The notes under the pieces are model-generated. The model ran no database searches. It was not told where the DNA came from and saw nothing but the letters and a program-made list of their open reading frames with translations. This document shows, in pieces, positions 29,551 to 41,057 of a stretch of 47,915 bases of DNA. The translations under genes and the position numbers were made by a program. Origin of the DNA: Bacteroidales bacterium (GTDB taxonomy: Bacteria > Bacteroidota > Bacteroidia > Bacteroidales > F082); the NCBI GenBank assembly GCA_017466405.1, contig JAFTUF010000046.1, positions 1-47,915 on the forward strand, written 5' to 3'. How positions within the stretch are numbered: the stretch's first letter is position 1; every line of letters starts with the position of its first letter.

Positions 29551-29656
29551 TTTGAACAAAGATAAACTCTCGATTGTATTATATACGGTTTTGGTTATAC
29601 ATTTCAATTTTCTCAAATGATGAAAAGCACTCAAGTTCCCAGCTGAGTGCTTTTTT
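29551..29656 (+). repeat. Four-copy hairpin element, copy 1
   Basis: Contains TTTGAACAAAGATAAAC, GGTTTTGGTTATACATTTC and the hairpin AAAAGCACTCA/TGAGTGCTTTTTT. It follows acrB by 20 bp, so it can act as the efflux operon terminator on the plus strand. It also ends about 26 bp from the stop codon of the convergent ATPase gene. Other copies are at 31435, 32336 and 35106. Confidence 0.85.
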
Positions 29657-31434: not shown

Positions 31435-31544
31435 TTTGAACAAAAATAAACCCTCGATTGTATTATATTCGGTTTTGGTTATACATTTCAATTTTCTCAA
31501 ATGATGAAAAGCACTCAAGTTCCCAGCTGAGTGCTTTTTTAGTT
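31435..31544 (+). repeat. Four-copy hairpin element, copy 2
   Basis: Nearly identical to copy 3. It carries the AAAAGCACTCA/TGAGTGCTTTTTT hairpin and ends 3 bp from the stop codon of the DUF2442 gene. No plus-strand gene ends here, so on that strand it is not a simple operon terminator. Confidence 0.88.
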
Positions 31545-31547
31545 AAA

Positions 31548-31796
31548 TTACATTATATTTCCATTATAAAGGTCTTCGAGATGAAATTCCAGATCATTTC
31601 CCCAAATTATATTGCCGTTGACCAACTTCCCCTTCTTGAAATTAACAATTTTAAGATATTTATTATACTGAGGATGAGGATGACTTCTAATAAATTCTCC
31701 GACATCAATATTCTTACGAGTAGAGTCATTAAATAAAATATCAACAGTCAAATCGTCATTATAAACAGCCTCAATAATCTGAATCCGGTTTTCCAT
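31548..31796 (-). CDS. DUF2442 protein (partner of DUF4160), locus A
   Basis: An 82-residue protein with the DUF2442 pattern: an N-terminal beta segment (AVYNDDLTVDILFNDSTRKNID), a middle helix, and NGNIIWGNDLEFHLEDLY near the end. It overlaps the stop of the DUF4160 gene by 1 bp (TAATG). DUF4160/DUF2442 pairs are common, small and patchy, which suits a toxin-antitoxin-like role; this is inference and no activity is known from the sequence. Confidence 0.82.
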   Translation of the reverse strand: MENRIQIIEAVYNDDLTVDILFNDSTRKNIDVGEFIRSHPHPQYNKYLKIVNFKKGKLVNGNIIWGNDLEFHLEDLYNGNIM

Positions 31797-32095
31797 TATA
31801 TTTTGTCTTTAATATTGGTTTTCTTTATTTTCTTCTTTAAAACAAAAAAATCTATCCATTTATTTACAATTTCAGGAGCATATTTCTCAACAAACGATAA
31901 TGCTATCTTCAAATCATTTTCTGAAAAAGTCTGCGCTTTTGAATTGCGTTGTCTAATTTCCACTATTTCAGCATTATCAATAATTATTTCAAAAATAACT
32001 TCCGCTCCACCTTTCTGCACGTGGACGTGAATCGGTTCGTGTTCATTAGAGTAAAATTTAAACACAAACCCAAAATATTCAAATATTGTCGGCAT
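31796..32095 (-). CDS. DUF4160 protein, locus A
   Basis: A 99-residue protein. It starts MPTIFEYFGFVFKFYSNEHEPIHVHV, the DUF4160 hallmark with a conserved EH.P.H.HV. A helix (ENDLKIALSFVEKYAPEIVNKWIDFF) follows, then a basic tail. The -7 box TAATTTTG at 32121-32128 precedes it. First gene of the pair with DUF2442. Confidence 0.85.
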   Translation of the reverse strand: MPTIFEYFGFVFKFYSNEHEPIHVHVQKGGAEVIFEIIIDNAEIVEIRQRNSKAQTFSENDLKIALSFVEKYAPEIVNKWIDFFVLKKKIKKTNIKDKI

Positions 32096-32335: not shown

Positions 32336-32443
32336 TTTGAACAAAAATAAACCCTCGATTGTATTATATTCGGTTTTGGTTATACATTTCAATTTTCTCA
32401 AATGATGAAAAGCACTCAAGTTCCCAGCTGAGTGCTTTTTTAA
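32336..32443 (+). repeat. Four-copy hairpin element, copy 3
   Basis: Same core and hairpin as copies 1 and 2. It ends 17 bp from the stop codon of pdxS, and lies about 240 bp upstream of the DUF4160 start at 32095. Confidence 0.88.
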
Positions 32444-32460
32444 TCTTATCTTACCTTATT

Positions 32461-33324
32461 TTATTTTCCTCTCTCCGCCATCAGGATTTTTATCTCGTTT
32501 TCGTTGATTCCTACCATAGCCTCGCCGAGGTCTTCGCTCAACTCTGCCAAGATGTTAGGATTGTTGTAGTTAGCAACAGATTTCACTATTGCCTTAGCTC
32601 TTTTCATCGGATCGCCGCTCTTGAATATGCCGCTTCCCACGAACACACCTTCGGCTCCTAACTGCATCATCAAGGCAGCGTCGGCTGGTGTCGCCACACC
32701 TCCAGCAGCGAAGTTTGGCACCGGAAGTCTGCCGTTGTCATGGACATATTGTATCAACTCAAAAGGCACTCTCAACTCTTTGGCGGCTTCATACAACTCA
32801 TCAGAATTAAGAGAAACGACTTTCCTTATCTCACTCTGCATCATACGCATATGACGGACAGCCTGAACAATATCACCTGTGCCTGCCTCTCCTTTCGTCC
32901 TAATCATCAAAGCACCTTCGCCGATACGACGCAATGCTTCGCCTAAATCTCTCGCTCCGCAAACGAATGGCGTCACAAACTGACGTTTGTCAACATGATA
33001 GACATCGTCGGCTGGAGAAAGCACCTCGCTCTCATCGATATAGTCAATGCCTATCGACTCCAAAATCTGAGCTTCAACAAAATGACCTATACGACATTTC
33101 GCCATCACGGGAATATTGACAGCTTTCTGAATCTCTTTTATCATCTTAGGATCGCTCATACGCGACACTCCACCCGCGACTCTGATGTCGGCAGGAACTC
33201 TCTCAAGAGCCATAACGGCTTTAGCACCAGCAGCCTCAGCAATACGAGCCTGCTCTGGATTAGTTACATCCATAATAACACCGCCTTTTAAAGACAATGC
33301 TAAATCACGATTTATTTCTTTCAT
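32461..33324 (-). CDS. pdxS: Pyridoxal 5'-phosphate synthase lyase subunit PdxS
   Basis: A complete 287-residue PdxS (Pdx1). The early Asp is in GGVIMDVTN, the first catalytic Lys in [11 protein letters not shown], and the second Lys in [19 protein letters not shown]; the [11 protein letters not shown] phosphate loop is near the end. It condenses ribose 5-phosphate, glyceraldehyde 3-phosphate and ammonia to pyridoxal phosphate. Ammonia normally comes from the glutaminase PdxT, which is not in this window. A kinase-like/AraC regulator lies directly upstream on the same strand, separated by about 100 bp with two 21-bp-spaced direct repeats. MKEINRD is preferred over the extra Met before it. Confidence 0.96.
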
Positions 33325-33348
33325 CATTCAAAAATTTTAAATACGGTA

Positions 33349-33415
33349 CAAAGAAAAATATTATCAAAAGACGAAAGAAAAATGTGTTCCGATATTGTAA
33401 AATATTATTCCGATA
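33349..33415 (-). promoter_or_regulatory. pdxS upstream region with AraC-like direct repeats
   Basis: TTCCGATA occurs at 33387-33394 and again at 33408-33415, exactly 21 bp (two helical turns) apart. A weak -7 box TTTCTTTG (one mismatch) lies at 33349-33356 with no good -33 element. If this is the promoter, the repeats sit at about -43 to -71, where AraC-type activators bind. Confidence 0.55.
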
Positions 33416-33425
33416 ATAAGAAAAT

Positions 33426-34502
33426 TCATCTCATACGAAACTCCAAAGGCGTGCATTTTTCGTTTTTAAGAAAGAAGGAAGAAAAACTTGACTGTGATGA
33501 AAATCCTAGACGGTTGGAAATCTCCTGTATGTTAAAATTCGTTGACTCTAAAAGTATCTTTGCTTCTTTCATCACATAATCCGATATAATCTGTTTCGGA
33601 CTTACACCAACAACATCGTTAGTCACTTTAGATAGATAACGTGTTGAAATACATAACTTATCAGCATAAAATTCCACGTCATGCGACTTGTTATAATTTT
33701 CCGCCAGAATCGACATGAGTTTGTTGTAGATGACAGTCTTTCTCGAATGTTGTATTTTCTCCTTCACGGCATAAACCACCTGTTTGTGCATATAGTCGTG
33801 AGCTTTTTCCAAAGCCGTTGTGATGTCGTCGCCGAAAGCTAGACGCGTCGCGATGGCGGAAGAGAGCGCTCCACCTACTCCGTGTTTCTGCCAGCCTTCT
33901 GTATTGTGAGAAGTGAAGAAATGCGTTCTGTCGTTTTCATAAAGCAATGCCGTCAGAAGACCGTCGGAATGTTTGGACGCACGCAGCAAGACGGATTCCG
34001 CACCCATATTAATAAAGGTACGAGCCGCCTTTATCATATCGTCATCAGTTTTAATCTTCATGGCGAGCATTTTTTCAGCTTCGTTGCTACGTAATATCAA
34101 TAACGTCGCCATAGGAATCAAATGTCTTTTGATGGCAGCAACTGCTTCATCAGGAATGATTTGCATTCCATCAGAAGAGAAGATTCCAGGTACAAGCACG
34201 ATGCTCTGCGAAGCGACAATTTCTTTTTTCAACATCTTGATTGTAGCGACATCACGGACGAGACCGATTTTTGTGACCTTAGGATGCCATTCCTTCACGA
34301 CAGCCCTCACCTGCCCTATTATCATGTCAGTCGGGAGGTCGTTGATGGAAGTAGAACCGTCATCATTCTGCACCGTCACAGACGTTATCGCTGTCAGGGC
34401 GTATGCTCCGAGCGCAGACATCGTTCTTATATCCGCCTGAACGCCAACGACGCCGGCGCCGTCAGAACCAGTTATCGTCAATATCGGAACAAGGGTTGGC
34501 AT
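33426..34502 (-). CDS. ThiD-like kinase domain fused to an AraC-type DNA-binding domain
   Basis: Residues 1 to about 245 resemble HMP/HMP-P kinase ThiD (PVLTITGSDGAGVVGVQADI, ALGAYALTAITSVTVQN, TKIGLV), and residues about 255-358 are a two-helix-turn-helix AraC domain (YADKLCISTRYLSKV and IQEISNRLGFSSQSSFSSFF). ThiD enzymes carry a catalytic Cys in HGTGCTLSSAIA; here the motif is HGVGGALSSAIA, with Gly211 in place of Cys. The domain therefore probably senses a pyrimidine or pyridoxine-type ligand without phosphorylating it. The gene is directly upstream of pdxS and downstream of a DUF2442 gene (16 bp), so it is a candidate vitamin B6 regulator. A true ThiD with the Cys is encoded at 39246. 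Confidence 0.85.
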   Translation of the reverse strand: MPTLVPILTITGSDGAGVVGVQADIRTMSALGAYALTAITSVTVQNDDGSTSINDLPTDMIIGQVRAVVKEWHPKVTKIGLVRDVATIKMLKKEIVASQSIVLVPGIFSSDGMQIIPDEAVAAIKRHLIPMATLLILRSNEAEKMLAMKIKTDDDMIKAARTFINMGAESVLLRASKHSDGLLTALLYENDRTHFFTSHNTEGWQKHGVGGALSSAIATRLAFGDDITTALEKAHDYMHKQVVYAVKEKIQHSRKTVIYNKLMSILAENYNKSHDVEFYADKLCISTRYLSKVTNDVVGVSPKQIISDYVMKEAKILLESTNFNIQEISNRLGFSSQSSFSSFFLKNEKCTPLEFRMR

Positions 34503-34518
34503 ATAATCTAATTTAAAA

Positions 34519-34773
34519 TCATTTCATCAAGACACTTCTTTCATATAAGAATTCAGGGGCAAAGCCTATTTCATTATTCCAATCAACAGTAAAAGGATCC
34601 AAAGTATAAGATTTGAAATAGTCCATATCTCTTAGTTTTTTGCATACACCTTTGTCCATCAATGGTTCAAAATCCATCAGACGTACTTCTGTATTATTAA
34701 ATGTTAACTTTAACACATAATCTTTTACATATTCAGCTTTTACTATTTTCAAAATAATATCTCTCATAATCAT
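34519..34773 (-). CDS. DUF2442 protein, locus B
   Basis: An 84-residue DUF2442 protein: KAEYVKDYVLKLTFNNTEVRLMDFEPLM, then a loop and FTVDWNNEIGFAPEFLYER. Its start overlaps the DUF4160 stop by 4 bp. It differs strongly from the locus A protein, so the two pairs are not recent duplicates. The regulator gene follows 16 bp downstream. Confidence 0.82.
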   Translation of the reverse strand: MIMRDIILKIVKAEYVKDYVLKLTFNNTEVRLMDFEPLMDKGVCKKLRDMDYFKSYTLDPFTVDWNNEIGFAPEFLYERSVLMK

Positions 34774-35045
34774 TTTAAAGGTTCTATCTTATTAGCAAGT
34801 TCGCTATTTAAAAGCAATCTCCAATTCTCCAACAGTTCTTCCTTATGAATATCAAGCCATTCATAAACCAATTTCAACTCGCGTCTTGGCAGAGAACCAA
34901 TTATCACTCCTTCTTCTATTGTAATAACTGCCTCGTATCCATTATACCAAACATGAAAATGTGGCGGATTATGATCTTCAATATACATATAGATTATAAT
35001 CCCATAAAATCTACTTATTTCTGGCATATCATTAAAAGATTTCAT
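34770..35045 (-). CDS. DUF4160 protein, locus B
   Basis: MPEISRFYGIIIYMYIEDHNPPHFHV is the standard DUF4160 opening (conserved DH.PPHFHV), followed by GVIIGSLPRRELKLVYEWLDIHKEELLENW. The frame starts at 35045; the ATG at 35027 (MPEISRF) matches other family members better. A -7 box TATCTTTG lies at 35072-35079 and copy 4 of the hairpin element begins 60 bp upstream. Confidence 0.87.
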   Translation of the reverse strand: MKSFNDMPEISRFYGIIIYMYIEDHNPPHFHVWYNGYEAVITIEEGVIIGSLPRRELKLVYEWLDIHKEELLENWRLLLNSELANKIEPLK

Positions 35046-35105: not shown

Positions 35106-35168
35106 TTTGAACAAAAATATCCTCCGATTGTATTATATCCGGTTTTGGTTATACATTTCAATTTTCAA
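35106..35168 (+). repeat. Four-copy hairpin element, copy 4 (half, no terminator hairpin)
   Basis: Shares TTTGAACAAAAATA, CGATTGTATTATAT and GGTTTTGGTTATACATTTC with the other copies but stops before the AAAAGCACTCA hairpin. It ends 2-4 bp from the stop codon of the second thiE-like gene. Confidence 0.85.
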
Positions 35169-35169
35169 T

Positions 35170-35718
35170 TCACAAACCTCCCATCATCGCCGCACCACCG
35201 AAACCTAAATCTTTCAAGAATGAAATTTTGTCGAAGGTTACGCCGCCTAAAGCAACGACTTTCTTATCAATAATTCCATCTTGCGAAGCTTTCTTCAGTT
35301 CTTCTTCCGTGAACGCCGACTTATATCCTTTCTTGGAAATACTGTCGAAAATCGGACTTAAAAAGACATAGTCGAAATCATCTTTATATAATTTCACTTC
35401 TTCCAAAGAATGACAGGAACGTGTCTTAAAACCTTGATAGTCTTCAGGATATTTTGTAACGTTTCTATTGATATGAATTCCTTTCAAATCAAACTCATAA
35501 TATAATTCAGGATAATCGTGGATGACGATTTTCTTCCTTTCGTCGGGAGTTAATTCTTTCAACAACTCACGCAATTCTGCAAGGACGCGGCAAGCCACGT
35601 CCTTACTATTAGCGGGTTTTCTCAGATGAAGAATATCGAAGCCGCTCTCAAAAACACGACGTATGAAAGCGACTTCGTTATCCTCGGTATAGGGTTTTGT
35701 TATTGCAATGAGATTCAT
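35170..35718 (-). CDS. ThiE/TenI-like protein (second thiamine phosphate synthase homologue)
   Basis: A 182-residue TIM-barrel protein with ThiE-like segments: DILHLRKPANSK, IVIHDYPEL, GIHINRN, YVFLSPIFDSISKKGYKSAF and VALGGVTFDKI. The substrate motifs of canonical ThiE (QLR..., GxHxGQxD and GPFxxTxTK) are altered, so it may be a TenI-like or specialised paralogue. It is the last gene of the thiamin operon; a canonical ThiE is encoded at 38449. It is separated from thi4 by a 156-bp inverted repeat-rich gap. Confidence 0.83.
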   Translation of the reverse strand: MNLIAITKPYTEDNEVAFIRRVFESGFDILHLRKPANSKDVACRVLAELRELLKELTPDERKKIVIHDYPELYYEFDLKGIHINRNVTKYPEDYQGFKTRSCHSLEEVKLYKDDFDYVFLSPIFDSISKKGYKSAFTEEELKKASQDGIIDKKVVALGGVTFDKISFLKDLGFGGAAMMGGL

Positions 35719-35732
35719 GTTAGTGTAGAGTT

Positions 35733-35883
35733 GATTGTTTATAGTTTAGAGTAGTTTTGAAGTTGATAGTTAATAGTTTTAAAGTTTATTTGCTAAGTAT
35801 GCAGATAAAATTATGATAAACTTTTAAACTATAGACTTTTAAACTTTCAACTACTCTAAACTATGAACTTTAAACTATAAACT
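35733..35883. repeat. Imperfect long inverted repeat of 7-mers between thi4 and the second thiE
   Basis: GTTTATA, GTTTAGA and GTAGTTTT units on the left are answered by TCTAAACTATGAA and TTTAAACTATAAAC on the right. The right arm runs into the last codons of thi4. The transcript would fold into a long imperfect hairpin. Confidence 0.55.
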
Positions 35884-36642
35884 TTTAATAATCAAATCTG
35901 AGACTTTCTTTCCCGACATGAGCATTCCGCCGAAGATTGGTCCCATGCGCGGAGTGCCGCTCACTGCCGACGCCGCCATGCCGCAGACATAAAGTCCCGG
36001 GTAGATTTCTTTTGTTCCGTTGACGACTTCTTCTTCGCCAGATACGACATCTAAAGAGCGTTCACCAATGACATCGCCGGTGTCTGTCGCGAGACGAATG
36101 CCGTTCTTACGAGCGACGGTCTTACACATCTCGCTGTCGTGACCTGTTCCATCGACGACACATTTTGCCATGATATTCAACGGATCGACATGCATTCCTT
36201 CTCTTAAGACCGGAGTCCAGTTGACGACAACGCCGCTGACAACATTGTCTTTAAAAATGACATCTTCAACAGAATAGCAATTGAAAATCGTTGCGCCGGC
36301 ATGAACAGCCTTATAAAGGAGAGCTGATGTGCTTTCGACGGAATCCATGACGTAGAGATTGTCGTCGTATTTTTCATAATTAATGTCGAAGTCATTGATA
36401 ATGTGCAGCGCTTCTTCTTGAACTACAATCTGGTTAAACATCATAGCTCCGCCCCACATACCTCCGCCTGGAGATAGTTTTCTGTCGAACAAAGCGACTT
36501 TCTTACCTGCTTTGGCGAGATAATACGCCGCTACAATTCCTGAAGGACCGCCACCAACGATAGCGACATCTAATTCTAAATTCTTTTCTAACTTACTGAA
36601 ATAGGTACTGATAATTCCCTGTGATACTTTTTTTTCTATCAT
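35875..36642 (-). CDS. thi4: Sulfide-dependent thiazole synthase, Thi4 family
   Basis: A 255-residue FAD-fold protein: VAIVGGGPSGIVAAYYLA dinucleotide motif, FDRKLSPGGGMWGGAMMF, and a C-terminal GLYVCGMAASAVSGTPRMGPIFGGML. Thi4 makes the ADP-thiazole precursor of thiamin from NAD and glycine. Yeast-type enzymes donate sulfur from a Cys; here the position is His151 in REGMHVDPLNI, as in archaeal enzymes that use free sulfide. That fits a sulfide-rich anaerobic habitat. The frame is open to 36801, but the extra 53 residues are the translation of inverted repeat copy 4 and a CTGTTG array, so the ATG at 36642 (MIEKKVSQG) is the start. Confidence 0.92.
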   Translation of the reverse strand: MIEKKVSQGIISTYFSKLEKNLELDVAIVGGGPSGIVAAYYLAKAGKKVALFDRKLSPGGGMWGGAMMFNQIVVQEEALHIINDFDINYEKYDDNLYVMDSVESTSALLYKAVHAGATIFNCYSVEDVIFKDNVVSGVVVNWTPVLREGMHVDPLNIMAKCVVDGTGHDSEMCKTVARKNGIRLATDTGDVIGERSLDVVSGEEEVVNGTKEIYPGLYVCGMAASAVSGTPRMGPIFGGMLMSGKKVSDLIIKSL

Positions 36643-36659
36643 AATTTTTTTTATTTCTA

Positions 36660-36692
36660 TCAACAGACAACGGACAATAGTCAACAGTCTGT
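36660..36692. repeat. CTGTTG-type 7-mer repeat upstream of thi4
   Basis: Minus-strand units CTGTTGA, CTATTGT, CCGTTGT and CTGTTGA lie 20-50 bp before the thi4 start. Confidence 0.7.
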
Positions 36693-36728
36693 TTTGGGTT
36701 AATAATTTTATATTTTCATACGCATATT

Positions 36729-36785
36729 GAGACGCAGCAATCACATTATTGTTAATTATCATTGGTGTGATTGACGCGTCTCTAC
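36729..36785. repeat. Dispersed inverted repeat, copy 4 (GAGACG family)
   Basis: Left arm GAGACGCAGCAATCACA and right arm TGTGATTGACGCGTCTC. The inner part differs from copies 1 and 2 (CACA instead of TACA) and the right arm differs to match. It abuts the thiC stop codon. Confidence 0.8.
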
Positions 36786-36787
36786 AA

Positions 36788-38380
<1,593 letters not shown>

Positions 38381-38437: not shown

Positions 38438-38492
38438 AGACGCAGCAATTACATATTGTTAATTTTTATAGGTGTAATTGATACGTCTCTAC
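38438..38492. repeat. Dispersed inverted repeat, copy 5, inside the end of thiE
   Basis: Left arm AGACGCAGCAATTACA, right arm TGTAATTGATACGTCT. The thiE stop codon (38449-38451) lies in the left arm, and the right arm codes for the last residues of ThiE. Confidence 0.8.
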
Positions 38493-39249
38493 AATTGTCA
38501 ATTGTAAAAAGAACATTGTTAACCTCTCTCACCGCATCTCCCGTTCCCGTTCCCGCTCCCGTTCCCGTTTCCGTTCCCGCTCCCGTTCCTGCTCTCAAAA
38601 TGCTTCCGCTCATCGCGATGCCATCGACGCCTACATTAATTAATTCGGGAATGTCGTCTTTGGTGATTCCTCCTATCGCGACAAGCGGAATGTTGATATT
38701 GTTTTCTTTCATCTTATTGATGATGTTTTTATAACCTTCGATGCCAAGAATCGGGGCAAGGTTTTTCTTCGTGGATGTAAAACGGAAAGGACCGCAACCG
38801 AAGTAGTTGGGAACGAGATTTGGGAACGGGTGTGGGTGTTGGGAGCGAGTGCGGGTGTGGGAATTGGGGACGGGGACAAAGTCTGTTGTCCGTTGACATA
38901 ACAACAATATATCTTCGAAAGTGTTGACCGTCGCTCCTATTATAAAGTCGCTGCCCAGAATATTACGCGCTTCATCTACAGGCATATCGTTTTTGCCAAG
39001 ATGCACACCGTCGGCTTTTATCTTCTTGCAGAGATGTACGTTATCGTCGATGATGAATGTTGCACCGTATTCTTTGCACATATTTTGTACGATGAGAGCT
39101 GTCTCTTCTAACAAGGATTCGTCAGCGTCTTTCATCCTTAACTGAATCCATCGGCAGCCGCCTTCGAGAGCGATTCGCGCCGAATCGATGTAAGAATATT
39201 TCTCCGTATAATGTGTGATAAACTGTAATCTGAAATGTTCTAAATTCAT
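38449..39249 (-). CDS. thiE: Thiamine phosphate synthase ThiE carrying repeat-coded insertions
   Basis: A canonical ThiE core: FITHYTEKYSYI, CRWIQLRMKDADE, FIIDDNVHLCKKIKADGVHLGKNDMP, GCGPFRFTSTKKNLAPILG and PLVAIGGITKDDI. It joins HMP-PP and thiazole phosphate. At 266 residues it is about 50 longer than usual. Residues about 119-148 (QRTTDFVPVPNSHTRTRSQH and on) are coded by a CTGTTG array followed by a GGGAAC-type hexamer array. The C-terminus after ILRAG is coded by a second hexamer array (TGAGTETGTGAGTGTG) and by inverted repeat copy 5, whose left arm supplies the stop. The start overlaps the thiD stop (ATGA). Confidence 0.92.
   Translation of the reverse strand: MNLEHFRLQFITHYTEKYSYIDSARIALEGGCRWIQLRMKDADESLLEETALIVQNMCKEYGATFIIDDNVHLCKKIKADGVHLGKNDMPVDEARNILGSDFIIGATVNTFEDILLLCQRTTDFVPVPNSHTRTRSQHPHPFPNLVPNYFGCGPFRFTSTKKNLAPILGIEGYKNIINKMKENNINIPLVAIGGITKDDIPELINVGVDGIAMSGSILRAGTGAGTETGTGAGTGTGDAVREVNNVLFTIDNCRDVSITPIKINNM
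38537..38594. repeat. GTTCCC/GCTCCC hexamer array in thiE 3' part
   Basis: About nine 6-bp units, GTTCCC, GCTCCC and GTTTCC, kept in frame and translated as GT/GA/TE dipeptides. Confidence 0.85.
38811..38896. repeat. Hexamer and 7-mer repeats inserted inside thiE
   Basis: GGGAACG/GGGTGTG/GGGAGCG units (38811-38879) next to a CTGTTGT/CCGTTGA unit (38880-38896), between the ThiE strand ending ILLLC and the GCGPFRFT motif. Confidence 0.8.
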
Positions 39250-40094
39250 AACACTATCATTTTTTGAGGGTTAAAGAAATGATTCACCGGACCGAAGCCA
39301 TGACCGATTCTTATATCAGCAGCGTTGCGAATGGCTTCGGTTACGTATTTCTTAGCTTCAGAAATAGAATCTTCCAAAGAAAGTCCTCTCGCCACGAAAG
39401 CCGCGATTGCCGATGATAAAGTACATCCCGTTCCGTGAATGTTGTTGGTTTGAATCGTCTCTGAAGAAAATGACAAAAAAGTCTGTTGACTATTGTCTGT
39501 TGACTGTTGACCTTTATAAAATAAAAAATCCGTTTTTACATCACCTTCTTCGTGACCGCCTTTGAGAAGTACGGATTTCGCTCCGAGATTCAACAGATAA
39601 TCTGCTGCTTTTTCTTTTTCCTCAAAGGTTGAGACAGGCATTCCAGTCAAGGCAATCATCTCCGGAATATTTGGTGTTATGAGTTCGCTCATCGGAAGAA
39701 GACGCTCTTTGATTGTCTCCTGCGCTTCGAGTGATAAAAGTCTATGTCCGCTGCTTGAAACGATGACAGGATCAAGTATTATTTTCAGTTTATAATGGCT
39801 AAGTGCTTCTGCCACAGCCTCGACGATTTTCTCGTTAGATAACATTCCAATCTTCACTACTGAAGGATTAAGGTCTTCCATCACAGCAACAATCTGTTCA
39901 TAAACCATTTTAGGATTCAAGGCGAATTGAGATTTTACACCTAATGTATTTTGCGCTGTGATAGCAGTTATCGCTGTCGCTCCATAAACGCCGAGGGCGG
40001 AAAATGTCTTGAGGTCAGCTTGTATTCCAGCTCCTCCAGACGAGTCGGAACCGGCTATTGACAATACGATAGGATAAGATTTGATTTGATTCAT
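39246..40094 (-). CDS. thiD: Bifunctional HMP kinase/HMP-P kinase ThiD
   Basis: First gene of the thiamin operon. Motifs are SIAGSDSSGGAGIQADLKTF, GVYGATAITAITAQN, ILDPVIVSSSGH and the catalytic HGTGCTLSSAIAAF. It phosphorylates HMP and HMP-P. Residues coded by 39480-39512 (GQQSTDNSQQT) come from a CTGTTG-type 7-mer array in a variable loop before the catalytic motif. The frame opens at 40160, inside the TPP aptamer; the start is the ATG at 40094 (MNQIKSYPIVLSIAG), whose first base pairs into the putative sequestering stem of the riboswitch. Confidence 0.95.
   Translation of the reverse strand: MNQIKSYPIVLSIAGSDSSGGAGIQADLKTFSALGVYGATAITAITAQNTLGVKSQFALNPKMVYEQIVAVMEDLNPSVVKIGMLSNEKIVEAVAEALSHYKLKIILDPVIVSSSGHRLLSLEAQETIKERLLPMSELITPNIPEMIALTGMPVSTFEEKEKAADYLLNLGAKSVLLKGGHEEGDVKTDFLFYKGQQSTDNSQQTFLSFSSETIQTNNIHGTGCTLSSAIAAFVARGLSLEDSISEAKKYVTEAIRNAADIRIGHGFGPVNHFFNPQKMIVL
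39480..39512. repeat. CTGTTG-type 7-mer repeat inside thiD
   Basis: Units CTGTTGA, CTATTGT, CTGTTGA and CTGTTGA on the plus strand, translated on the minus strand in a loop between the core and the HGTGC motif. Confidence 0.8.
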
Positions 40095-40250
40095 ACCACT
40101 ATTTTTTACGTTATTACTGCTCAAAACAGTGGTACGGCAAGTACCATGAAGGGACTCCAAACTTCCAGCGTCAGCATTATCTGTACTGGTGCAATGTGTA
40201 TAATCTCAGACACGGCAGCCTTTCGGCATACCGGACACCACCATTCGAGT
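40094..40250 (-). promoter_or_regulatory. TPP riboswitch (thi box) and expression platform of the thiamin operon
   Basis: On the minus strand the aptamer runs from about 40250 to 40153. P1 pairs ACTCGAA with TTTGGAGT; the core has GTGTCTGAGATTATACAC (the CUGAGA box) and ACAGATAATGCTGACGC (the GAUAAUGCNGNCG box). Downstream, GGTAC/GTACC (40145-40131) forms one hairpin, while TACCACT (40134-40128) can pair with AGTGGTA (40100-40094), which covers the start codon. The two stems exclude each other, so control of translation is likely. Confidence 0.92.
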
Positions 40251-40256
40251 ATGGCG

Positions 40257-40264
40257 CAAAGGTA
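40257..40264 (-). promoter_or_regulatory. -7 promoter box of the thiamin operon
   Basis: TACCTTTG on the minus strand; transcription would begin near 40251, at the first base of the aptamer. Confidence 0.65.
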
Positions 40265-40278
40265 ATAAAAAAAATTCT

Positions 40279-40286
40279 TATCTTTG
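40279..40286 (+). promoter_or_regulatory. -7 promoter box of the TIGR02757 gene
   Basis: TATCTTTG overlaps the TTG at 40284 that opens the longest frame, so the ATG at 40305 is the start. Confidence 0.6.
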
Positions 40287-40304
40287 CTTAAAATATTTTA
40301 CCCA

Positions 40305-41057
40305 ATGAAAAATTATTTAGACTCCTTATTTATAAAATATAATACTCCAGATTTTATTGAGAACGATCCGGTGCAGTTCCCGCGTCGTTATTCCGAGAAA
40401 AACGACATCGAGATAGTGGCGTTTCTCACTGCTACAATTGCTTGGGGCAAGCGTTCCATGATTCTCAATTCGGCTAATAAAATGCTCAACACCATGGGTA
40501 AGTCGCCTTACGACTTCATCATGTCGGATGGTTTCAAGAACTTAGACCCCGACAAATGCGTGCATCGTACCTTCTTCAACCGCGACTTCATCTATTATTG
40601 CAAAGGTCTAAAACAGATTTATACAGAACATCAAAGTCTCGAAGACATTTTCACATTAAACGACAATCATGATGTATGGCAAGGCATTCAGAATTTCAGA
40701 GATAAGATTCAGGAAGTTAACGGCGGTGCAACAAGCGTTCACATCTCTAATCCTTATTGTGACAATCCAAAGAAAGGCTCTGCCTGCAAGAGACTTCATC
40801 TAGCTCTCAAATGGTTAGTTCGTGACGACGGCATCGTCGATATTGGCATCTGGAAAAAGATAAAACCTTCCGACTTGATGATTCCGCTTGATGTCCATGT
40901 GGGAAGAATCTCGCGCGAACTCGGACTTCTTCAAAGGAAAAGCAACGACAGGACAACCGTCGAAGAACTTACTTCAAGACTTCGTGAGATGGATCCTAAC
41001 GACCCTGTAAAATACGATTTTGCTTTATTCGGTTACGGTGTCAACCGTGAGATATAA
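40305..41057 (+). CDS. TIGR02757 family protein (DUF2400)
   Basis: A 250-residue protein matching the TIGR02757 pattern of Bacteroidetes and other anaerobes: FIENDPVQFPRRYSEKNDIE, TATIAWGKRSMIL, SPYDF, KGSACKRLHLALKWLVR and MIPLDVHVGRISRELGLL. The last part resembles helix-hairpin-helix DNA glycosylases, so a nucleic acid function has been suggested for such families, but none is established. Divergent from the thiamin operon and ending at a bidirectional terminator. Confidence 0.85.
   Translation: MKNYLDSLFIKYNTPDFIENDPVQFPRRYSEKNDIEIVAFLTATIAWGKRSMILNSANKMLNTMGKSPYDFIMSDGFKNLDPDKCVHRTFFNRDFIYYCKGLKQIYTEHQSLEDIFTLNDNHDVWQGIQNFRDKIQEVNGGATSVHISNPYCDNPKKGSACKRLHLALKWLVRDDGIVDIGIWKKIKPSDLMIPLDVHVGRISRELGLLQRKSNDRTTVEELTSRLREMDPNDPVKYDFALFGYGVNREI

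Follow-up and report, generated by a model that had tools for sequence, protein, structure and literature searches.

A putative vitamin B6 regulator beside pdxS in Bacteroidales that joins a ThiD-type kinase fold to an AraC-type DNA-binding domain

The locus and its fusion protein

The window analysed here is the whole stretch of 47,915 nucleotides of contig JAFTUF010000046.1 from a Bacteroidales bacterium (assembly GCA_017466405.1). On its minus strand lie, in this order, a thiamin cluster, a DUF4160 gene, a gene for a fusion protein and pdxS, with the following features.

40146-40252, minus strand: TPP-riboswitch-like leader before thiD
39246-40160, minus strand: thiD, a true ThiD with the motif HGTGC (profile, TIGR00097, 313.2 bits)
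38449-39249, minus strand: thiE-like gene, presumed (named from the sequence)
36788-38374, minus strand: thiC-like gene, presumed (named from the sequence)
35875-36801, minus strand: Thi4-like gene, presumed (named from the sequence)
35170-35718, minus strand: TenI-like gene (profile)
34770-35045, minus strand: DUF4160 gene (profile)
33426-34502, minus strand: fusion, a candidate regulator of 358 aa, with a probably kinase-dead ThiD/pyridoxal-kinase-fold domain (~5-245) and an AraC-type DNA-binding domain (~254-358)
32461-33327, minus strand: pdxS, PLP synthase subunit and presumed target (NCBIfam PdxS at 492.6 bits, cut-off 395)
32408-32439, minus strand: hairpin 3' of pdxS (AAAAGCACTCA...TGAGTGCTTTT), a possible terminator read from the sequence, inside a 108-bp repeat

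The leader before thiD scored 39.9 bits (E 1.6e-6, 401-base search), below the Rfam gathering score of 54.3, in a sub-threshold search limited to 40050-40450. The listed TTG start of thiD, at 40160, falls inside this leader, which makes the ATG at 40094 the probable true start. An imperfect inverted repeat, its 68-nt arms 76% complementary, separates the TenI-like gene from the Thi4-like one (35722-35883). Four copies of a 37-bp sequence, GTATTATATNCGGTTTTGGTTATACATTTCAATTTTC, are found on one strand of the window (29576-29612, 31460-31496, 32361-32397 and 35130-35166), against none in shuffles; two of the four sit in the exact 108-bp repeat. Two DUF4160 genes (31796-32095 and 34770-35045) flank the fusion-pdxS pair, each near a copy of the 37-bp repeat. 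A defence system in the window was considered and dropped, there being no PADLOC match.

The original prediction for this locus described a ThiD-type domain with GVGG, and hence Gly211, at the place of the catalytic cysteine, fused to a complete AraC DNA-binding domain, and both parts of that description hold. The Pfam family Phos_pyr_kin matches residues 15-247 of the fusion (6.8e-51), and the motif HGVGG at 207-211 puts Gly211 at the position of the cysteine in ThiD's HGTGC. HTH_18 matches residues 279-357 (8.3e-20) and covers model positions 1-79 of 80. With 71.3 bits against a cut-off of 33.6 for HTH_18, and 36 against 26.6 for HTH_AraC, the C-terminal part is an AraC/XylS domain, and HTH_18 is also above its cut-off in all six fusion relatives scanned. 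Neither the GntR winged helix nor the fold-type I aminotransferase domain of PdxR/MocR is among the fusion's Pfam matches.

The kinase part falls short of the family models for working enzymes. Against TIGR00097, the ThiD equivalog, the fusion reaches 172 bits, under the cut-off of 204.95 (the true ThiD of the window has 313.2), and against NF009077, the ThiD-type pyridoxal kinase PdxK, it reaches 93.7 bits, under the cut-off of 385. An AlphaFold (AF2) model of the window's fusion, a long form, has a pLDDT of 86.3, and its best Foldseek matches are ThiD and pyridoxal kinases, which identifies the ThiD fold: ThiD 4jjp (E 2.8e-20, TM 0.90 by target), PdxK 2i5b (TM 0.81-0.83) and 4c5l (TM 0.78-0.80, both by target). 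The fusion is single-copy in the window genome, where a separate ThiD is also present. It lies upstream of pdxS on the same strand, as predicted, at a distance of 98 bp (33328-33425) and not the 100 bp first given.

The fusion clade and its linkage to pdxS

The catalytic cysteine is absent from all 43 fusion ORFs found (0/40 distinct, since L007/L045, L036/L122 and L056/L137 are duplicate sequences), and no fusion with an intact catalytic motif occurs among them. At the cysteine position the 39 aligned fusions (the window's and those of 38 loci) have Gly in 25, Asn in nine, Ala in three and Ser in two, and four further fusion ORFs (L136, L137, L138, L145) read HGHGN or HGLSN. Among the 83 plain ThiD ORFs from the same searches, the motif HG[TS]GC is found in 82 (HGTGC in 81, HGSGC in one), the search expression giving no match in the remaining one, and none of the 83 has an AraC domain. 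A quick-method tree that combines 29 fusions with 43 plain ThiDs places the fusions on one side of a single branch (SH-aLRT 100) and divides them into a branch A of 16 rows, including the window, and a branch B of 13 rows.

Nine short forms in branch B (L051-L053, L055-L057, L060, L061 and L063) lack about 65 residues (~140-205 in the numbering of the window's fusion) but retain the N-terminal half and the AraC domain. Pfam scans of three short forms matched no more than roughly the first 123 of the 246 Phos_pyr_kin positions. The AlphaFold model of one of the short forms, L051, has a pLDDT of 85.6 and finds the same ThiD and pyridoxal-kinase targets in Foldseek, at TM ~0.5-0.7 by target. From what is known of the ribokinase fold, we take the deleted stretch to be the nucleotide side of the kinase, and the loss of so much of it in some members indicates that selection does not maintain catalysis. 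The Gln of ThiD's TAQNT is retained in only 30 of 39 fusions and absent in nine, which points to an altered pocket. Judged from these sequences, the kinase domain of the fusion is in all likelihood catalytically dead.

The fusion and pdxS keep company across genomes. In the window's family, pdxS was found in 13 of 173 genomes, and a profile search (E 1e-40, up to 13 candidates per genome) placed the full-length fusion in the identical set of 13; the hypergeometric value for this co-occurrence, 8e-20, ignores kinship within one genus and is not readable as a probability. The other profile matches in the family are one contig-cut second copy (G393) and sequences that end by position 199 of 309, like plain ThiD. 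A sample of the order holds pdxS in 13 of 295 genomes; a search there for the fusion with the window protein as query (E 1e-30, up to six candidates scored per genome) gave the long form in five genomes, a sixth (G111) has a short form adjoining pdxS, and all six fall among the 13. No fusion lies within ~1.5 kb on each side of pdxS in the other seven pdxS genomes of this sample, which became the controls described below. It is the family search that bears on whether genomes without pdxS lack short fusions. In a sample of the phylum (395 genomes, E 1e-60) the only full-length fusion is the window's own, and the two other matches stop at position 242, as does plain ThiD.

Where the surroundings of the fusion can be judged, pdxS adjoins it in 35 of 40 loci (32 of 37 distinct), 28 in tandem and seven divergently, with gaps of up to ~520 bp; three of the 43 loci (L042, L052, L123) are not judgeable, their contigs ending beside the fusion. 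At L063 pdxS is ~2.4 kb away, and at L043, L046, L057 and L060 there is no pdxS within ~4 kb on each side. Of the seven genomes whose loci have no adjacent pdxS, five have the gene, and a search of the two others, fusion-bearing genomes of L052 and L057 for which completeness was not given, returned no pdxS match. Loss of the cysteine and a place next to pdxS had both been proposed as features to look for in homologues, and both checks favour the original prediction. Palleniella muris also has a free-standing kinase of the ThiD/PdxK Pfam family (L046:8252-9040, minus strand), ~3 kb away from its fusion gene and possibly serving B6 salvage.

A direct repeat upstream of pdxS

The gap between the fusion and pdxS holds three further features, the half-sites being ranked over all positions and both strands with a cross-species matrix that includes the window's own proximal site.

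33407-33423, minus strand: distal AraC-type half-site, TTTCTTATTATCGGAAT, matrix score 14.3 (rank three in the window), spaced 21 bp from the proximal one
33386-33402, minus strand: proximal AraC-type half-site, TTTTACAATATCGGAAC, the conserved one (EM motif), matrix score 23.0, best in the window, 33 bp 5' of TTTG
33349-33352, minus strand: TTTG belonging to a putative Bacteroidetes -7 box for pdxS, 33 bp away from the proximal half-site (most loci have 32-33 bp)

The 8-mer reported in the original prediction to occur twice, 21 bp apart, is TTCCGATA, at 33387-33394 and 33408-33415, and the spacing is exact. At this spacing the pair occurs nowhere else in the window and in none of 100 shuffles, and the single 8-mer is unremarkable there (4 observed against 2.16 expected). 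The -7 box was also rightly called weak, reading TTTCTTTG against the consensus TAnnTTTG given for Bacteroidetes in the accessible part of PMC7366714. The whole element upstream of pdxS is a 21-bp direct repeat of the 17-bp half-site TTTtTCAAAATcGGAAC, with 32-33 bp between its end and the TTTG of the -7 box.

When 24 representative promoters were searched for motifs, the 17-bp site TTTttCAAAATcGGAAc emerged. The site matrix was built from eight branch-A tandem loci and tested on 20 other loci, 16 of which had been in the motif search that yielded the eight matrix sites, which leaves the tests partly dependent on it. When position was ignored, dinucleotide shuffles were beaten (p<0.05) by 12 of the 20 test loci and by none of the seven controls, and the best site mostly preceded a TTTG by 33 bp (branch A) or 32 bp (chiefly branch B). 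Requiring this 32-33 bp offset as well raises the passing test loci to 18 of 20 (17 of 19 distinct) and lets through one of the seven controls, in a test that depends on the position-free one, after which the offset was chosen; many fusion loci are close relatives, and the controls come from other genera and are not kinship-matched. The control that passes is a fusion-less pdxS promoter (L148), and it does so marginally (p=0.041) and with a weak score. No convincing site was found at the test loci L008 and L044 or at the L157 pdxS. Eight of 36 loci stood outside the test, namely five loci closely related to those used for training (L034, L116, L117, L119, L120), two duplicates (L045, L122) and L063, where pdxS does not adjoin; the five close-kin loci have the half-site pair, with 15-16 of 16 letters at spacing 21.

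Of all the shifts tried for a partner half-site, -21 gives the highest mean score in branch A (z 4.4) and in branch B (z 3.1) alike, and the 21-bp direct repeat is therefore real and general across fusion loci. The paired repeats on which the original prediction had staked its case are accordingly conserved, and the lack of repeat conservation upstream of pdxS that would have spoken against it is not seen, the repeat being kept in most loci. An extra half-site 22 bp downstream, noticed by eye in branch B (L051, L056, L145), ranks fourth in the shift test, below -21, -20 and -22, and was rejected.

The place of the site follows the layout of the genes. In tandem loci with a gap of at least ~100 bp the site lies inside the fusion-pdxS gap, in nearly joined tandem loci it lies 5' of the fusion gene, which heads the operon, and divergent loci have it in the gap common to both genes, pointing toward pdxS. 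Where pdxS does not adjoin the fusion, the site is present at 32-33 bp in four of five cases (L158, L159, L160, L161) and absent at L157. The pdxS genes L157 and L158 (Palleniella muris) are the only ones on a contig other than that of the fusion, and one of the two (L158) has the site; the pdxS at L159 is on the same contig as the fusion at ~5.8 kb and that at L161 at ~2.4 kb, and the L042/L160 contigs end beside the genes. Action of the fusion at a distance is suggested, with one clear case for it (L158) and one opposed (L157).

A scan for a wider regulon with TCGGAAY-N14-TCGGAAY, allowing one mismatch, gave 60 matches in ten genomes, one per genome being the pdxS promoter. Of the other 50, six were read in context and all six lie within open frames. 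The reversed control pattern outnumbers the real one in nine of the ten genomes, so the scan recovers pdxS, and the fusion may have other targets. An RNA element for the fusion or pdxS was also considered and set aside, no Rfam match in the window being over its gathering score.

A proposed B6 sensor and its alternatives

Some bacteria of the gut and rumen appear to use such a broken-down kinase joined to a DNA-binding domain to control a gene of B6 synthesis. We consider it likely that the ThiD-derived kinase-AraC fusion is a kinase-dead B6 sensor which controls pdxS(T), probably as an activator, by binding the upstream direct repeat, which supports the interpretation in the original prediction. 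An ancestral ThiD/pyridoxal-kinase domain would have lost its catalytic cysteine and gained an AraC DNA-binding domain, and the resulting ligand sensor would retain the substrate-side half of the kinase, the N-terminal one, and could spare a large part of the remainder. A dimer would occupy the two directly repeated 17-bp half-sites, spaced 21 bp; with 32-33 bp between the promoter-proximal copy and the TTTG of the -7 box, the protein would sit upstream of the core promoter. It would activate pdxS(T) when B6 is short, and binding of a B6 vitamer (PLP or pyridoxal) by the kinase-fold domain would turn activation off.

The proposed protein resembles several known regulators in part. PdxR, the MocR/GntR regulator of Gram-positive bacteria, also joins an enzyme-fold sensor to a DNA-binding domain, and it controls pdxST, as the fusion probably does, but it consists of a winged helix followed by an aminotransferase fold, whereas the fusion is a ThiD kinase fold followed by AraC, and the domains are unrelated; the best reading is that the fusion does PdxR's job without kinship to it. 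In several species the apo form of PdxR activates and PLP is an anti-activator, according to the accessible part of PMC5320631. ThiD and PdxK kinases (B. subtilis PdxK 2i5b, S. aureus 4c5l) share the fold and ~24-30% identity over the kinase domain, but the fusion, unlike them, is without the cysteine, is joined to AraC, stays below the family cut-offs and has lost ~65 residues in some members. With AraC/XylS activators it shares the C-terminal double-HTH and, as a sequence pattern, the operator: AraC itself uses directly repeated 17-bp half-sites that are spaced 21 bp and precede the promoter. The sensor of AraC is a cupin-like arm domain, as opposed to the seemingly dead vitamin kinase of the fusion. 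ROK repressors and BirA/NadR are kinases or enzymes turned regulators as well; their folds and regulons differ from those of the fusion, and BirA and NadR retain enzyme activity. Archaeal ThiR has a different DNA-binding domain from the fusion. It is alike in being a relative of a vitamin enzyme, thiamine phosphate synthase, reused as a regulator (cited in the accessible part of PMC6593275), and unlike in that the vitamin, the enzyme and the domain of life are all others.

That the fusion regulates pdxS is, on sequence grounds, very probable, and would be more so were there more than one site-bearing pdxS on another contig than the fusion. The contrary case, that the repeat is inherited promoter sequence or the site of some other factor and the fusion an inconsequential neighbour, draws on the fact that related species share promoters by descent, on the controls being of other genera and not kinship-matched, and on the pdxS at L157, which is on another contig than the fusion and has no site; it seems highly improbable given that the site precedes the promoter expected to drive pdxS in gap, operon, divergent and non-adjoining layouts alike, and that fusion and pdxS co-occur exactly in the family. 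The sign of the control is less secure. The half-site pair upstream of the -7 region and the weak box of the window lead us to infer that the fusion is probably an activator rather than a repressor. Repression of pdxS by the same protein and operator, with B6 as co-repressor, is unlikely: the site lies before the fusion gene itself in the operon layout, and such autoregulation is compatible with either sign, but the conserved half-site 32-33 bp 5' of TTTG, with its partner further upstream and outside the core promoter, is in the usual place of an activator, and the weakness of the -7 box in the window also argues against a repressor.

A B6-type vitamer is a fairly likely ligand. ThiD binds HMP (1jxi is a ThiD complex) and the fusion adjoins a thiamin cluster in the window, so HMP or a thiamin precursor might be sensed instead, linking B1 and B6. 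We regard this as rather improbable, since the adjoining thiamin cluster is seen in the window only, and searching the other fusion loci with ThiD (E 1e-10, over ~1.5 to 4 kb around the fusion or as far as the contig reaches) turned up no separate thiD, whereas pdxS adjoins the fusion in 35 of 40 loci; the thiamin cluster of the window has its own TPP-riboswitch-like leader, albeit at 39.9 bits and below the gathering score of 54.3, and the TAQNT Gln is absent in nine of 39 fusions. A bifunctional protein, a regulator still acting as a pyridoxal or HMP kinase with another residue replacing the cysteine, would fit the full fold kept by the long forms (TM by target 0.90 for ThiD 4jjp and 0.81-0.83 for PdxK 2i5b). 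It is nevertheless very unlikely, with the cysteine gone in 43 of 43 fusion ORFs, some clade members without ~65 kinase residues and a separate ThiD in the window genome.

Among the literature matches listed, with subscription journals mostly outside coverage, no ThiD-AraC B6 regulator is described, and the accessible main texts of PMC5320631, PMC9997740 and PMC6593275, all of which name PdxR, do not mention AraC. Nothing on control of PdxS-route B6 synthesis in Bacteroidales came up among those matches, and the regulator named there for pdxST is the MocR-type PdxR. The parts are of known kinds (AraC regulators, the ThiD fold, enzyme-fold vitamin regulators), and what is new, within that literature, is their combination and role. 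The fusion is a concrete candidate regulator with a DNA site and a promoter spacing. If the B6-sensor reading is true, an enzyme-fold B6 regulator was invented independently, with living intermediates from full to shortened kinase, and the clade displays the stepwise conversion of an enzyme to a sensor. For annotation, such fusions could easily be mislabelled as HMP kinases.

The clade of the window also differs in its B6 enzymes. PdxT, the glutaminase partner of PdxS, was not found in any of ten of its genomes, those of the window and of nine same-genus long-fusion relatives (G000, G321, G303, G376, G377, G385, G391, G393, G381, G389), and is present in all eight other fusion genomes tested. 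PdxS without PdxT in this clade would probably run on ammonia. In its accessible part, PMC9997740 lists eight genomes with a PdxS homologue only, among genomes without a predicted PLP pathway, and cites a study on B. subtilis pdxT-deletion suppressors; the prototrophy rule given there requires PdxS and PdxT, and would overlook the window's clade. We lean slightly towards the fuller picture in which the pseudokinase lineage is a dedicated B6 regulator of the PdxS route, reading PLP or pyridoxal without ATP, its nucleotide-side piece discarded in some members and its target in the window's clade a PdxS without PdxT. PdxJ had no match in any of the 18 pdxS-bearing genomes tested. Among seven relatives without pdxS, PdxJ was found in one, and six have neither gene, as auxotrophs should look. 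Genomes G101, G201, G286, G374, G309 and G311, of the same genus, have no PdxJ or pdxS match and are likely B6 auxotrophs, which would make B6 prototrophy patchy within the genus.
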